A stretch of DNA of 22,338 nt from a virus. Every line of letters starts with the position of its first letter. Position 1 is the first letter of the stretch. Positions 3,426 to 19,186 of the stretch are shown here, one piece after another. The stretch is from IMG/VR virus record IMGVR_UViG_3300048904_000170, positions 1 through 22,338 of that record; one strand, written 5' to 3'. The notes under the pieces were generated by a model that did no database searches, was not told the origin of the DNA, and was given only the letters and a program-made list of their open reading frames with translations. Both the position numbers and the translations under genes were made by a program.

Positions 3426-3500
3426 TGGCCCCTATGGCGCGAATCGAACGCGCGTCTTCCTAGTGTAAACTAGTCGCTCTACCTACTGAGCTACACAGGG
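3426..3500 (-). tRNA. tRNA gene with unusual 6-base anticodon loop, best read as tRNA-Val(TAC)
   Basis: Read on the minus strand, a 7-bp acceptor stem pairs CCCTGTG with CATAGGG (one G-U), followed by discriminator G and an encoded CCA. The D arm is TA-GCTC-AGTAGGTA-GAGC. The T arm is GCGCG-TTCGATT-CGCGC. The anticodon stem is CTAG/CTAG, with the next outward pair mismatched (A-G), and the enclosed loop is TTTACA, six bases instead of seven. Taking the second T as U33 gives anticodon TAC (Val) with A37, the most sensible reading. Taking the first T as U33 gives TTA, which would read the UAA stop codon but would put C at 37. The gene is flanked by inverted copies of TAAGTATTAG. Whether it is functional or decayed cannot be told from sequence alone. 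Confidence 0.75.
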
Positions 3501-14549: not shown

Positions 14550-14600
14550 GCTATATATGTATATGAGCTATATATGTATATGAGCTAGATATGTATATGG
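14550..14600. repeat. Three tandem 17-bp repeats (iteron- or operator-like)
   Basis: GCTATATATGTATATGA occurs exactly at 14550-14566 and 14567-14583, and a third copy at 14584-14600 differs at two positions (GCTAGATATGTATATGG). There is no spacer. The array ends 25 bases upstream of the first leftward ATG, in the leader of the leftward transcript. A 17-bp period puts successive copies about 1.6 helical turns apart. An initiator, repressor or phage promoter array could use it. Confidence 0.85.
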
Positions 14601-14604
14601 AGAA

Positions 14605-14653
14605 ACCTAGGGCATCCAGAAAGCCAATCTCGTAACCTTCCGATGCCCTAGGT
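14605..14653. repeat. Perfect 12-bp inverted repeat with 25-base spacer
   Basis: ACCTAGGGCATC (14605-14616) and GATGCCCTAGGT (14642-14653) are exact complements. They start four bases from the 17-bp repeats. The T-run after the stem on the minus strand is short (TTTCTCC), so a terminator is doubtful. An operator pair or attenuator are alternatives. Confidence 0.75.
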
Positions 14654-14850
14654 CCACTGTTGCCGCTACTCGTTGGTGACAACCGTCTTCATCTCCGGTT
14701 AGACAATTGATCATTCAATTGCATTTATTCAAAGCACTCGCAATGCCCGAATAAATGAGTCATAATGACTTCTAAATCCTTTAGCGCCTATACCGAAACG
14801 GCTCCAGCGCGGATTAGGACGGCCCAACAACGCATAACGCGCGTGTTAGC

Positions 14851-14904
14851 GGAATGGTTCCCTCGGCCGAGTTAGGGGCGCAAGGGCGCCCCTGAAACCA
14901 TTCC
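14851..14904. repeat. Nested inverted repeats forming a three-arm or cruciform structure
   Basis: GGAATGGTT (14851-14859) pairs with AACCATTCC (14896-14904). Inside lie the 10-bp palindrome CTCGGCCGAG (14862-14871) and the hairpin AGGGGCGC-AAGG-GCGCCCCT (14874-14893). The elements account for nearly all bases in the segment. GAATGGTT recurs at 15102-15109 opposite AACCAT at 15131-15136. Confidence 0.7.
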
Positions 14905-14962
14905 CACGCCTTGGCTATTATAGATCGGCAAGCCGCCAAGCCTCTTGTCCGACCACAACAAG

Positions 14963-15039
14963 TATAGGAAAAACACACACCGTAGCCATCGTCTTTAAGT
15001 TGGTGTATGTTTCATAGGTGGATGGCTCACTTTCCTATA
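14963..15039. repeat. Crossing inverted repeats (pseudoknot-like) in the rightward leader
   Basis: The outer arms TATAGGAAA (14963-14971) and TTTCCTATA (15031-15039) are perfect. Inside, ACACACACC (14973-14981) can pair with GGTGTATGT (15002-15010, one mismatch), and AGCCATC (14984-14990) pairs with GATGGCT (15021-15027). The last two pairings cross, as in an H-type pseudoknot. The element lies about 210 bases before the helicase start. Confidence 0.5.
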
Positions 15040-15249
15040 TCTCAAATCAGGCATGGCTTCTAGCTGAAGCCACCCTGACCCACCCCCTAAGGCAGTTCAG
15101 CGAATGGTTGGCGAACCAAGCGCCGCGTCGAACCATCAATCTAGCGCCCCTTGCGCCCGGCCACAAGCCCCATTATCATATTTTTTCGCGATTTCGTCCA
15201 AACGGACGACTTTTAAGAAAAATCGAAGAATTATTCAAGGAAACCCACA

Positions 15250-17547
15250 ATGAATTCCGTCCACGAAAAAGACCTTCCAGCATCATTGCTTGCTTACTTT
15301 AACAGAATTGGCGCACATGTCCTCAATTTTAAAAGAGCAATGGTCAAGGAAGAAGGGAGTAAATACTACGTCGAAAAAGTAATCCTTAAGGTTCTGCCAG
15401 ATGGCACCATAGAAACCAAAGAAGAACATAAGTCCTGGCTTCCTTTAAAGACTGAACAGGAACTAATCAGAGCAGAATTCGTTGGGCGCGAATTCCCTAT
15501 TTACAAAGAATCCACTGAAATCAATGCGCTTGAGCTTCGCCAAAAGCTTATGCGCGAGCATTCCGACTCGCAGGTATACCTGTTTTATAACCAAGAAACA
15601 GGCAACGTCAAGATGGTCCAGCATCGATACGATGATGTTGACAATGAAAGACAGTTCATTCCTTACACTTACTGGTCTGACATGGAATGGCGTAAAATGG
15701 AGCCTGAGGGCGGGCTTCCGTTTTTCAAGCCAAAAGTTGCCACTTGTAAAAGTATCATGGTGCATGAAGGCGCCAAAGCAGCACAAGCAGCACAAAGAAT
15801 TGTGGACAAGGAAGAAAGGGATCATGTTTGGTATGAAGATCTGAAGGATTATGAACACTGGGGAATGATTGGCGGGGCAACAGCAACGCACAGAACAGAC
15901 TATAGTGAACTTCATAAAAGAGAATCCAAAGATGTTGTCTATGTTTGCGATAATGATTACCTTGGAAAGGAGGCATTGGAGACTATTAGCAAGCATTACA
16001 GAAGAAGTATGAAGGGAATTTATTTCGATTATCGTTGGCCTAATCATTGGGATATGGCCGATCCTTTTCCTGATCATCCAGAATTGTGGAAAGTTAGCCA
16101 AGAAACTGGAGTAAAGCACTACAACGGCCCTAAACTATTGCATCTAGCCCGTCCCGCCACTTGGGCAACGCAAGTAATCGAAACAGGAACTCGCGGCAGG
16201 CCGCTGATCGCCATCACAAGAGACTTTGGCGAGGAATGGATTCATTCTGTTGAGCCTGAAATTTACATCAATAAACACCTGCCACATGAGCAATACACGA
16301 AGGAAGGATTTAATAATCTTGTAAAGCCGTTTTCAGACGCAAAGGATACAGCCGACAAGCTGCAACGGCACAACTCAAGCAAGTCAATCAAGCTCACATA
16401 TGATCCAACAAAAGAATCAGGAATTATTCAAGGTGGAGGAGTTAAAGGCAATCTTGTTTTGAATACTTATGTTCCTTCACTTATTGAAGCAACTCCTTAT
16501 GAGAATGTTGAGGAAATCAGACCTTGGTTGGATTTTCTTAAAATTCTTATTCCAAGTGAAGGTGATCGTCACAATCTTAAGAAATGGATTGCGACATTGA
16601 TCTCGCGTCCTGACATTCGCATGACATTTGGCGTGTTGTTGATCAGTGAAAGAATGGGCGTAGGAAAGGATACCCTTGGCGAGCGAATCTTGGCTCCACT
16701 TGTCGGAGTAACAAACTGTTCTTTCCCGAACGAATCGAATATTGTCGACTCAAGCTTTAACGACTGGGTCGGCAATAAAAGACTAGCAGTAGTCCACGAG
16801 ATTTACGCTGGGCATTCTTCGAAAGCCTATAATAGACTTAAGAGTTACATAACGGATACTCATATCGACATCAATAAGAAGTATATGAATACTTATAAGG
16901 TCGAAAATTGGACTCATATGTTCGTTATGTCGAACAGCACGAACGCGCTGAAGGTAAGCGCGGGAGATCGCAGGTGGTTCGTGCCTTTCGTCACTGAAAA
17001 AGTTCAACCGTTCACATATTGGAACAATTTTTTCGATTGGTTAGAAAAGCGCGGTGGATTAAGTCTTATCCGACATTGGTGCGATTTACAAATGTTGCCC
17101 GGTGGAGTTGGATATTTCCAACGTGGTGAAATTGCGCCTGGATCAGAAGCCAAAGATAATGTTGTGAAAGATGGTTATTCGCCTGGAATGAGATTGCTGT
17201 ATGACGCAGCAAGGGAAATCAAGGAAGATAACGCAGATCGTTTAGTAGCCATAACCGACAGGCAGGCTCAGAATGTTTTGAAGCAATTCATGTATAATGG
17301 ACAAGATATGAAATATCTTGAAAAAACATCAACCATTCGCAAGGTTTTTGAAACAGCAGGATGGCACATTGGATGGGAACAAATTAAGAATCGAGATTGG
17401 AATGGCGTAAAATGTCGTGATCATAGAGTGATGTTAACCGGACCAGACGCGGAAGCTTTTGTTTCGGCACAAGTAGGCACAATAATGGCAGCGGCTCCTG
17501 AGTTGTATGACTTGCTTAGTTTGTTGAAGGGGAGAGAGGGGTTCTAG
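15250..17547 (+). CDS. Toprim-SF3 helicase, phage primase-helicase
   Basis: 765 residues. An N-terminal domain of about 160 residues is unassigned. Residues 165-275 look like a Toprim fold: SIMVHEGAKAAQAAQ (Glu173), VYVCDNDYLGKEA (Asp234, Asp236) and HWDMADPFP, as in phage primases. Residues 420-580 form a D5/SF3-type helicase of the DUF5906 kind: Walker A ERMGVGKDTLGE (GVGKDT 470-475), Walker B RLAVVHEIY (511-519), motif C HMFVMSNSTNA (556-566) and DRRWF (573-577) as arginine finger. The C-terminal 150 residues are probably a DNA-binding part. It should unwind DNA at the fork and make primers. As the only rightward gene beside the hub it probably starts replication there. AAGGA lies nine bases before the ATG. 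Product length suits a fused primase-helicase. Confidence 0.9.
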   Translation: MNSVHEKDLPASLLAYFNRIGAHVLNFKRAMVKEEGSKYYVEKVILKVLPDGTIETKEEHKSWLPLKTEQELIRAEFVGREFPIYKESTEINALELRQKLMREHSDSQVYLFYNQETGNVKMVQHRYDDVDNERQFIPYTYWSDMEWRKMEPEGGLPFFKPKVATCKSIMVHEGAKAAQAAQRIVDKEERDHVWYEDLKDYEHWGMIGGATATHRTDYSELHKRESKDVVYVCDNDYLGKEALETISKHYRRSMKGIYFDYRWPNHWDMADPFPDHPELWKVSQETGVKHYNGPKLLHLARPATWATQVIETGTRGRPLIAITRDFGEEWIHSVEPEIYINKHLPHEQYTKEGFNNLVKPFSDAKDTADKLQRHNSSKSIKLTYDPTKESGIIQGGGVKGNLVLNTYVPSLIEATPYENVEEIRPWLDFLKILIPSEGDRHNLKKWIATLISRPDIRMTFGVLLISERMGVGKDTLGERILAPLVGVTNCSFPNESNIVDSSFNDWVGNKRLAVVHEIYAGHSSKAYNRLKSYITDTHIDINKKYMNTYKVENWTHMFVMSNSTNALKVSAGDRRWFVPFVTEKVQPFTYWNNFFDWLEKRGGLSLIRHWCDLQMLPGGVGYFQRGEIAPGSEAKDNVVKDGYSPGMRLLYDAAREIKEDNADRLVAITDRQAQNVLKQFMYNGQDMKYLEKTSTIRKVFETAGWHIGWEQIKNRDWNGVKCRDHRVMLTGPDAEAFVSAQVGTIMAAAPELYDLLSLLKGREGF

Positions 17548-17556
17548 GGTTAAGGG

Positions 17557-17568
17557 TATATGCTCTAG
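17557..17568 (+). promoter_or_regulatory. Repeated 12-mer TATATGCTCTAG, copy 1
   Basis: The exact 12-mer occurs here, ten bases after the helicase stop, and again at 17992-18003 upstream of the 18066 gene. Both copies are in short intergenic gaps on the same strand. The TATAT start could be part of a -10 element. No convincing -35 is seen for this copy. It may be a phage-specific promoter. Confidence 0.35.
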
Positions 17569-17592
17569 TTTGTAAAATACACCCTGTTTTCT

Positions 17593-17691
17593 GGGGTAAA
17601 ACGCGTCAGTTTCCTACGTAGATAGAATCAAATCAAAGAAGGTAAGAAGGATTAAATTATATAGGAACCGGGAACTCATGCGTTTAACCCC
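17593..17691 (+). promoter_or_regulatory. Long-stem leader structure upstream of a small membrane gene
   Basis: GGGGTAAAACGC (17593-17604) pairs with GCGTTTAACCCC (17680-17691), 11 of 12 positions. Inside, TTCCTA (17611-17616) pairs with TAGGAA (17662-17667). A further TTTACCCCA (17694-17702) can pair instead with TGGGGTAAA (17592-17600), so two stems compete for the same 5' arm. The 226-base gap before the 17774 gene has no convincing ORF. Confidence 0.45.
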
Positions 17692-17773
17692 ACTTTACCC
17701 CACCCCCAAGGTTCATTTGCGGCCAAGCTGGTTGTACCCCTGTGAACCCAAATCATTTTTTGTGAGGAAGAAA

Positions 17774-17935
17774 ATGCGCAAATTTTTGTTTCCAATTTAT
17801 AAGGAAAAGATTTATGAAATTCAACAACCAAAGAAGAAAAAATTTAATGCAATTTGGATTGTTGTGATTTTTGGAATCATTGCAATTCTTTGCAAGTTGA
17901 GTGTAATTTATATTGACAGAATGTATCCAACATAA
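17774..17935 (+). CDS. 53-residue single-pass membrane protein
   Basis: Start ATG 17774 is chosen because AGGA lies six to seven bases upstream. The frame opens at 17678 but the earlier codons lie in a Pro-rich, C-run segment without SD. The N-terminus is basic and aromatic (MRKFLFPIYKEKIYEIQQPK, then KKK). One membrane helix follows (about residues 25-45, NAIWIVVIFGIIAILCKLSV), and then a short outside tail (DRMYPT). The positive-inside rule puts the N-terminus in the cytoplasm. Function is unknown. Confidence 0.7.
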   Translation: MRKFLFPIYKEKIYEIQQPKKKKFNAIWIVVIFGIIAILCKLSVIYIDRMYPT

Positions 17936-17969
17936 ATATGTGTTTTTTGGCGCGATTGGCTTGTGCCGC

Positions 17970-18003
17970 TTGCCAAGTGGCCAAAGCCTACTATATGCTC
18001 TAG
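17970..18003 (+). promoter_or_regulatory. Candidate rightward promoter including 12-mer copy 2
   Basis: TTGCCA (17970-17975), 16 bases, then TATATG (17992-17997), the start of the second exact TATATGCTCTAG copy (17992-18003). The next gene starts at 18066, so a leader of about 60 bases would result. The -35 and -10 matches are partial. The repeat is the stronger evidence. Confidence 0.35.
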
Positions 18004-18065
18004 AGGCGTGGCAAAGGTTTTGCGTTGCCCCATCGCGGAATTTCGCTCAACGGGAGCAAAATGTT

Positions 18066-18431
18066 ATGGTTGATATGTCTAATGTTCATCCTGTCATTCA
18101 TGGTGAGTTTGAAGATCATGAATGGCGGGCTGCTGTTTCTAAGAAAGCCGAACAGCGTAACCGTCGTGAAGCACAAATTGTGCGACGTGGTGCGCGTTCA
18201 CATCCTTATTCTGATGCTTCTGTTTATGTCGATAACAGTGTTCCAAACACTGTTCGATATTTTCAGGATGAAGAGCATCACAAGGCTTACACAAAGAAGC
18301 ATGAAGCCAAGGGTCCCCCTACGGCTGCCGCCCAGCCGTCTCCTAAGCAGGCAGACATTGATGCCGCCGGGAATGCCCAGGTGGCTGAGCGCATGGCCCA
18401 GCAGACCGCTGGCCGTGCTAAGGGAGCCTGA
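18066..18431 (+). CDS. Phage protein of unknown function, 121 residues
   Basis: Start ATG 18066 has GGGAG about nine bases upstream. The open frame reaches back to 17913, but those codons are unlike the rest. The N-terminal part is charged and His-rich (HPVIHGEFEDHEWRAAVSKK), followed by EQRNRREAQIVRRGARSHPY. The C-terminus is Ala/Gln-rich and probably disordered or helical (AAAQPSPKQADIDAAGNAQV, ERMAQQTAGRAKGA). Base composition rises sharply in GC over the last 130 bases, unlike the upstream half. No family is recognised. It precedes the structured intergenic region and the packaging genes. Confidence 0.68.
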   Translation: MVDMSNVHPVIHGEFEDHEWRAAVSKKAEQRNRREAQIVRRGARSHPYSDASVYVDNSVPNTVRYFQDEEHHKAYTKKHEAKGPPTAAAQPSPKQADIDAAGNAQVAERMAQQTAGRAKGA

Positions 18432-18451
18432 TGGGCAGATGCCTGTCCTTG

Positions 18452-18556
18452 GGCTTCCCAAGCCTCTGTGGTGAGAGTCCTGAAGCTGGTGGCGTCGGCC
18501 GGCTTAGTCTGTGAGGCCCTGACTTTCCAAATCACTCGCCTGGACCACAGAGGCTT
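18452..18556 (+). ncRNA. Candidate structured RNA element with competing stems (translational switch?)
   Basis: AAGCCTCTGTGGT (18460-18472) and ACCACAGAGGCTT (18544-18556) are a perfect 13-bp inverted repeat enclosing 71 GC-rich bases, which hold a further AAGCTGG/CCGGCTT hairpin (18483-18489 with 18499-18505). The AAGCC at 18460-18464 can alternatively pair with GGCTT at 18452-18456 in a tight local hairpin. The 3' arm contains AGAGG, the SD of the 39-residue ORF starting at 18559. Formation of the long stem would hide it, and the local hairpin would weaken the long stem. No known riboswitch family is recognised. Confidence 0.5.
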
Positions 18557-18558
18557 TA

Positions 18559-18678
18559 ATGATTGCTCTTGATATGATTGCAGCTTCCTTGTCCCGCACC
18601 CTTGGGGCTGCAAACTATCAAGAATGCAAGTCGGAAAGAGTTGTGATAAGAGATTATTGCACTCTTTTCGATTTTTAA
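18559..18678 (+). CDS. Possible 39-residue protein with SD inside an RNA stem
   Basis: The ORF starts MIALDMIAASLSRTLGAANY at ATG 18559 and ends DYCTLFDF. AGAGG lies five to six bases upstream, but inside the 3' arm of the 13-bp stem. The N-terminus is amphipathic and helical, and no family is recognised. It fills part of the 269-base gap before the small terminase. The ORF could be real, or a leader peptide, or chance. Confidence 0.4.
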   Translation: MIALDMIAASLSRTLGAANYQECKSERVVIRDYCTLFDF

Positions 18679-18700
18679 CCATTTATCTACTGAAAAACAA

Positions 18701-19186
18701 ATGAATCCAGTAGCAGACATAACAGGCGATCAGGCGCAAATTCAAAAGCGCCCACGTGGCCGTCCAGTTGGATCAGTCAACAAGATTCAACAACTCGCAA
18801 GAGAGAATCTAACCGCGCTATTCGAAATGAATGGTGGGGTTCAGGGAATGTTTAAGTGGCTGCAAAAGAATGAAAGGAATGAATACGCATTTTATGTGTA
18901 CATCTATCCTAAGATTCTAGGCGTTCAAGGCGTTCAAAAGCCCCAAGGTCCAGTTGTTGCCAACATCACCAATGTGATCGTTGATCCGCGCAACAATTAT
19001 AAGGGATCAATTGACGCTTCAGCAGTCGATGTGACACCGCAACGTGAACCGCGATATGATCCACAAGACCACGAATTTAATGCCGTTGATAAAGACACTC
19101 CGGAAGTAATCGAAGAGGTTCCGATTTATGAACCTCAACAACAACTTCCTAATGCTTCCGACATCGATGGAGAAATTCCACTATGA
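18701..19186 (+). CDS. Putative small terminase subunit with AT-hook-like N-terminus
   Basis: 161 residues. Residues 14-29 (IQKRPRGRPVGSVNKI) carry an AT-hook-like RPRGRP core that would bind AT-rich DNA. A helical LARENLTALFEMNGGVQGMF and WLQKNERNEYAFYVYIYPKI segment follows, which resembles the RGRPKGS.NK..LL.E...A...GG....L........AF..L..K.LPL layout of small terminase-like phage proteins. The C-terminal 80 residues are acidic and Pro/Gln-rich, perhaps disordered. The position four genes before the large terminase supports a DNA-packaging role. The start codon has no clear SD (GAAAAACAA precedes it), so it may be downstream. The stop overlaps the next start as ATGA. Confidence 0.65.
   Translation: MNPVADITGDQAQIQKRPRGRPVGSVNKIQQLARENLTALFEMNGGVQGMFKWLQKNERNEYAFYVYIYPKILGVQGVQKPQGPVVANITNVIVDPRNNYKGSIDASAVDVTPQREPRYDPQDHEFNAVDKDTPEVIEEVPIYEPQQQLPNASDIDGEIPL

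Follow-up and report, generated by a model that had tools for sequence, protein, structure and literature searches.

The gap between a 121-residue gene of unassigned function and a putative terminase small subunit gene (terS) holds, as far as sequence comparison can identify one, a real, previously uncatalogued structured RNA element of a phage. The window analyzed here is a 22,338-nt (22-kb) piece of an environmental tailed phage, taken from a virus record. Our preferred explanation, to which we assign a probability of about one half, is that the element is a constitutively folded, non-coding RNA of ~250 nt, located on the + strand between these two genes and acting mainly in cis, as an intercistronic element. 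Comparison of two phage species shows that the secondary structure is conserved and belongs to the + strand, that the open reading frame (ORF) within the element carries no coding constraint, and that a previously proposed alternative fold is absent. It appears to be the folded shape, rather than the letters or a small protein, that evolution has preserved.

A four-domain RNA before the packaging genes

The starting point was a perfect 13-bp inverted repeat, in which AAGCCTCTGTGGT (18460-18472) is fully complementary to ACCACAGAGGCTT (18544-18556) across a 71-nt spacer. By simple arithmetic, a perfect 13-bp repeat with a spacer of up to ~90 nt is expected by chance ~0.03 times per 22-kb window. 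The earlier note that reported this repeat also pointed to GGCTT (18452-18456), AAGCC three bases further on (18460-18464), AGAGG (18549-18553) and a 39-residue ORF (18559-18678), and all of its coordinates are correct. Its proposal of a structured RNA before the packaging genes holds as well; the extent does not, as the element is bigger than described (18425-18673) and the original stem is the core of its second domain. Taken alone, the 171-nt stretch that had been suggested for folding (18430-18600) is of ordinary stability (z -0.45). The 266 nt from 18425 to 18690 are unusually stable (z -5.24, 0 of 200 shuffles), and so is the counterpart region in a separate species, L003 (contig 3300015371_000109; z -4.35, 0 of 200 shuffles).

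Folded separately, the window and L003 converge on one four-domain shape. D1 (18425-18455) is a two-part hairpin, AGCCU...GGGCU around GGGCAG(AUGC)CUGUCC, in which most pairs exceed a probability of 0.95 in the window and in L003 alike. The upstream gene ends inside D1, its stop codon coinciding with the 5' end of the hairpin, and D1 is nearly invariant in L003, the two changes being too few for a covariation test. D2 (18460-18556) is branched, comprising stems P1 and P2 and hairpin P3. The arms of P1 are the two halves of the inverted repeat, and the 3' arm includes AGAGG, which is absent from L003. P2 (18473-18527) pairs GAGAGUC at 18473-18479 with GACUUUC at 18521-18527 and shows one register shift and one double change in L003; its support is moderate, with a pair probability of only ~0.22 in the single-sequence ensemble. 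P3 (18483-18505; AAGCUGGU/GCCGGCUU) shows two double changes in L003, and its loop, GGCGUCG (18491-18497), is invariant. D3 (18567-18623) is a long hairpin, UCUUGAUA...UAUCAAGA, with an inner UUGCAGC/GCUGCAA helix and a variable C-rich loop; it differs from L003 by one double and four one-sided changes. D4 (18629-18673) is a hairpin of ~20 bp, AGUCGGAAAGAGU...ACUCUUUUCGAUU, and a few U residues in a row come after it in the window and not in L003. Helices of ~20 bp are part of the predicted fold.

Compensatory changes and strand

Base pairing has been retained through compensatory changes beyond chance, which on this comparison of sequences marks a structured non-coding RNA. Among 83 consensus pairs, 64 are identical between the window and L003, 8 differ on both sides, 11 differ on a single side, in each case gaining or losing a G-U pair, and none is broken; substitutions fall on 27 of 166 paired columns (16%) and on 28 of 80 unpaired ones (35%). 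The earlier note had looked to compensatory changes in the 13-bp stem for support, and they are there: P1 has three double changes (C-G to G-C, U-A to A-U and C-G to U-A) plus one consistent one-sided change (A-U to G-U), with no pair broken and one extra bulged A in L003. The consensus folding energy is -101.7 kcal/mol compared to -54.2 +/- 6.2 kcal/mol in 1000 controls, in which the same 55 substitutions were re-placed at random on like letters; none of the controls is as low. Domain by domain, the consensus energy is reached by 0 of 1000 controls for D2, 2 of 1000 for D3, 19 of 1000 for D4 and 280 of 1000 for D1, the last figure being uninformative because D1 has too few changes between the species. 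Two choices favor both the pair count and the consensus score: the alignment gaps were positioned manually in light of the structure, and the 83 pairs come from a consensus fold of these very sequences. The separate folds and the energy of L003 alone (-101.8 compared to -80.1, sd 5.0, in controls; 0 of 1000) are independent of these choices. The covariation amounts to one comparison, between two species.

The strand is also informative. The complementary strand has a consensus energy of only -50.2, clearly favoring a + strand RNA and making a DNA cruciform unlikely. Sites for DNA packaging (cos or pac) are often found directly before the small terminase gene, and the position of the element, immediately 5' of the putative terS, would suit a DNA element of this type, i.e. 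a packaging start site or cruciform rather than an RNA. We consider that reading highly improbable, as pairing survives the 11 one-sided changes only through G-U, which serves a + strand RNA and is not workable in DNA or in the - strand, and the energies favor the plus strand by the amount just given.

No support for a switch or a small protein

The earlier note had proposed a translational switch in which alternative folds expose or hide AGAGG, thereby controlling the 39-residue ORF. The short complementary pieces that such a switch would use do exist in the window; nevertheless, we give this proposal next to no credence. For GGCUU/AAGCC and for CUUGGG/CCCAAG, the pair probability stays at 0.00-0.01 throughout the contexts tested, and that of P1 is near 1 in five window contexts of 176 to 698 nt. 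The GGCUU/AAGCC pairing is at ~0.00 because GGCU is bound in D1 to AGCC at 18425-18428. Folding 18430-18600 does yield the CUUGGG/CCCAAG hairpin, and this stretch lacks the first D1 strand; the switch reading therefore hinges on where the fold starts. In successive 3' truncations the local hairpin is dominant nowhere, except for one transient CUUGGG/CCCAAG prediction at 18520. Nor is the local hairpin conserved: the P1 arm of L003 reads AGGGC, which cannot pair with GGCUU, and D1 and P1 both persist there. In a longer context (401 nt) the modeled probability of P1 in L003 falls to ~0.3, suggesting that flanking sequence can compete there; the weakness lies either in single-sequence prediction or in the P1 of L003. 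Two conserved folds that exclude each other were not found, and neither was a conserved Shine-Dalgarno sequence of a real gene within the switching arm; at the position of AGAGG, L003 reads AAATG.

The ORF itself (18559-18678, + strand), which spans D3 and D4, we judge to be no gene. Between the window and L003 its substitutions at codon positions 1/2/3 number 10/9/2, the reverse of the flanking genes (7/2/33 and 18/8/35); the changes alter residues and third positions are kept, a pattern which argues that the frame is not read as protein. It has no family match above the cut-off, and although it is open in L003 as well (38 codons), this is probably incidental, judging by the substitutions. 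The best reading is that the ORF is a by-product of RNA structure, and it illustrates how an open 39-codon frame with a plausible Shine-Dalgarno sequence can arise in this way. Judged by what the earlier note said would refute it, the pairing stands, and the Shine-Dalgarno sequence and the ORF do not.

Two other frames were considered and set aside. A 24-codon ORF at 18432 has only six codons in L003. The +1 frame beyond the stop of the upstream gene (DGQMPVL...) was rejected as a frameshift extension since the homologue in a more distant relative, L005, stops at the same GA-stop without it. The frame past that stop (18428-18474; EPDGQMPVL..LW-stop) is conserved in both species; we take it as a by-product of D1, leaving some chance that it is an overlapping frame.

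Distribution

The element appears to be lineage-restricted and is known from two phage species only. Two further relatives, L001 and L002, match the window exactly. L003 shares 83% identity in the primase, about 92-93% in the upstream gene, 75% in the putative terS and 79% at the DNA level in the RNA region, and a D2 covariance model based on the window sequence alone detects it at E 8e-13. In L005 (large terminase TerL 72%, upstream gene 42%, putative terS 39%), the RNA is absent and the gap before the putative terS contains a tRNA-Met gene (L005 3108-3180).

Searches by TerS, TerL, primase and upstream gene, and by DNA patterns in viral contigs, gave no other carriers, and the D2 covariance model applied to the loci of 80 TerL and 35 primase relatives found the same two species only. 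A similarity search of phage DNA records gave only chance matches, and structured gaps before the terminase in other relatives have no element obviously in common with this one, their z-scores being mostly modest. Candidates from wider searches were discarded: a P1/P3 pattern search of 85,000 cellular (bacterial and archaeal) genomes returned 34 chance matches, of which the covariance model confirmed none, and a D1 16-mer search returned nine unrelated contigs, mostly coding for a GGQMPV peptide, with D2 not nearby. Neither copy of the element matches any of 4,227 Rfam families, among them riboswitches, GOLLD, ROOL, pRNA, tmRNA and introns, chance matches appearing only at relaxed E, and literature searches turned up no account of an RNA at this position. 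The Rfam matches in the window that reach gathering score are three tRNAs only, away from the element. Separately, the tRNA at 3426-3500 (- strand), which Rfam also scores as a tRNA, has an odd anticodon loop from which ARAGORN yields only a two-base anticodon (ta).

Genome setting and transcription

On the + strand, a DUF5906 primase gene (15250-17547) precedes the upstream gene (18066-18431), the element and the putative terS (18701-19186), whose start is 27 bases 3' of the structured element. The terS is named from its position and general look; a family search gave no match for it, and a Shine-Dalgarno sequence before it was found in none of the window, L003 and L005. Small ORFs, a large terminase (TerL, a Terminase_3 family match just downstream of the putative terS) and a Phage_portal_3 portal gene follow on the same strand. 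Outside the conserved element, strong folding (z about -4) is also seen at the start of the putative terS gene (18681-18840), just past the 3' end of the element.

Conservation between the window and L003 begins abruptly at 17970-17999 and extends across the upstream gene and the RNA and into the terminase genes, whereas 17548-17965 is hardly alignable. At this boundary is a promoter-like site, TTGCCA-18-TATGCT (17970-17999, + strand), which is conserved in L003. Promoter-like matches in the region are no commoner than in shuffles, so the support for this site is its conservation. The conserved block is compatible with the upstream gene, the RNA and the putative terS sharing a single transcript. 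A 12-mer, TATATGCTCTAG, occurs at 17557-17568 and at 17992-18003, each time in a gap separating genes of the + strand. L003 conserves the second copy, which lies within the promoter-like site, and the repeated 12-mer is possibly a phage promoter motif.

Possible roles of the RNA

What might such an RNA do; does it act on its own transcript or elsewhere? We favor action in cis, probably in processing, insulation or the setting of output. In this proposal the element would be carried on one transcript starting near 18006 and would act mainly as an intercistronic element: its long helices (P1 plus P2 of D2, and those of D3 and D4) would serve as substrates for a double-strand-specific RNase and/or shield the ends. 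The putative terS start, which lacks a Shine-Dalgarno sequence, would in this way be uncoupled from the upstream gene, and the uncoupling would set the output of the packaging genes. The helices are kept and the unpaired letters are mostly free, making a structural or processing role likelier than one in which the sequence is read. Against this proposal, L005 carries both genes and no such RNA, so expression of packaging genes in general can do without it.

T7-type RNase III sites between phage genes and the lambda 6S/tR' leader are familiar cases of long intercistronic hairpins close to late genes. By analogy, the present element may work most like an intercistronic processing element. It differs from these systems in having four domains with a branched D2, and a processing or antitermination role is putative here.

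A narrower version of local action, which we consider unlikely, would make the RNA a 3' end or stability element of the upstream gene, with D4 as a terminator or attenuator and D1-D3 as a shield for the transcript, comparable to late-operon leader RNAs. The conserved promoter-like site upstream would suit this, as would the long D4 hairpin with UUUUU on its 3' side in the window; however, other bases break up the U run of L003 (UUGUUAG), and the terminator scan makes no call at D4.

The chief rival to a cis role is a trans-acting, stand-alone phage non-coding RNA, processed or transcribed from its own promoter and binding a phage or host protein or RNA. We regard this as possible, if less probable. 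The ~250-nt multi-domain fold would fit, and the fact that D1 and the P3 loop do not vary hints at specific recognition beyond mere processing; this invariance and a possible pairing between the two keep the idea alive. Additionally, the tRNA-Met gene that fills the L005 slot before the putative terS indicates that the slot tolerates a stable RNA gene. Yet a promoter-like site directly in front of the RNA is absent, the terminator is unconvincing, the RNA shares bases with the upstream gene's stop codon, and no relatives were found elsewhere. Antisense pairing with the primase gene was rejected since the complementarity is lost in the L003 loop sequence.

A more ambitious trans role, and in our view a very unlikely one, would tie the RNA to genome packaging, working with the adjoining terminase as a counterpart of the phi29 packaging RNA (pRNA) that arose independently. 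The AUGC of D1 could pair with GCGU of P3, extendable to GAUGCC/GGCGUC, and both are invariant between the species; contact between these loops would give a compact or multimeric RNA. The likeness to pRNA is that of a structured phage RNA linked with DNA packaging genes and having loops that could pair. Unlike phi29, the present phage has Terminase_3 and not a phi29-type motor, the RNA has no Rfam match, and the predicted D1-P3 contact is invariant and hence without covariation.

Relation to other phage RNAs

Comparative genomics has provided many candidate structured RNA motifs, some of them in phages, such as manA, wcaG and the c4 antisense RNA (PMC2864571, PMC8040213). The present element resembles these in being intergenic, non-coding, recognized by covariation, located beside phage genes and unproven in function; it differs in having no Rfam family and in being found in two species only. 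GOLLD and ROOL are large folded RNAs of phages and prophages, of unknown function and often near tRNA genes (PMC12286853). The likeness to them is only that of a structured phage RNA, as the present element is ~250 nt rather than many hundreds and lies beside terminase genes, not in a tRNA array. The element adds to current RNA catalogues a structured RNA with good support that they had missed, in a phage lineage and at a location, directly before a putative terS, where structured RNAs are rarely described. Should it prove to influence packaging or the output of the packaging genes, it would represent a testable RNA layer in phage assembly.

Elsewhere in the window, three tandem copies of a 17-base unit at 14550-14600 are followed by a gap before the primase gene that has strong folds on each strand, with z values near -4.5 (at 14600) and -4.2 (at 14920); the region 14550-15250 is a possible origin or control region.
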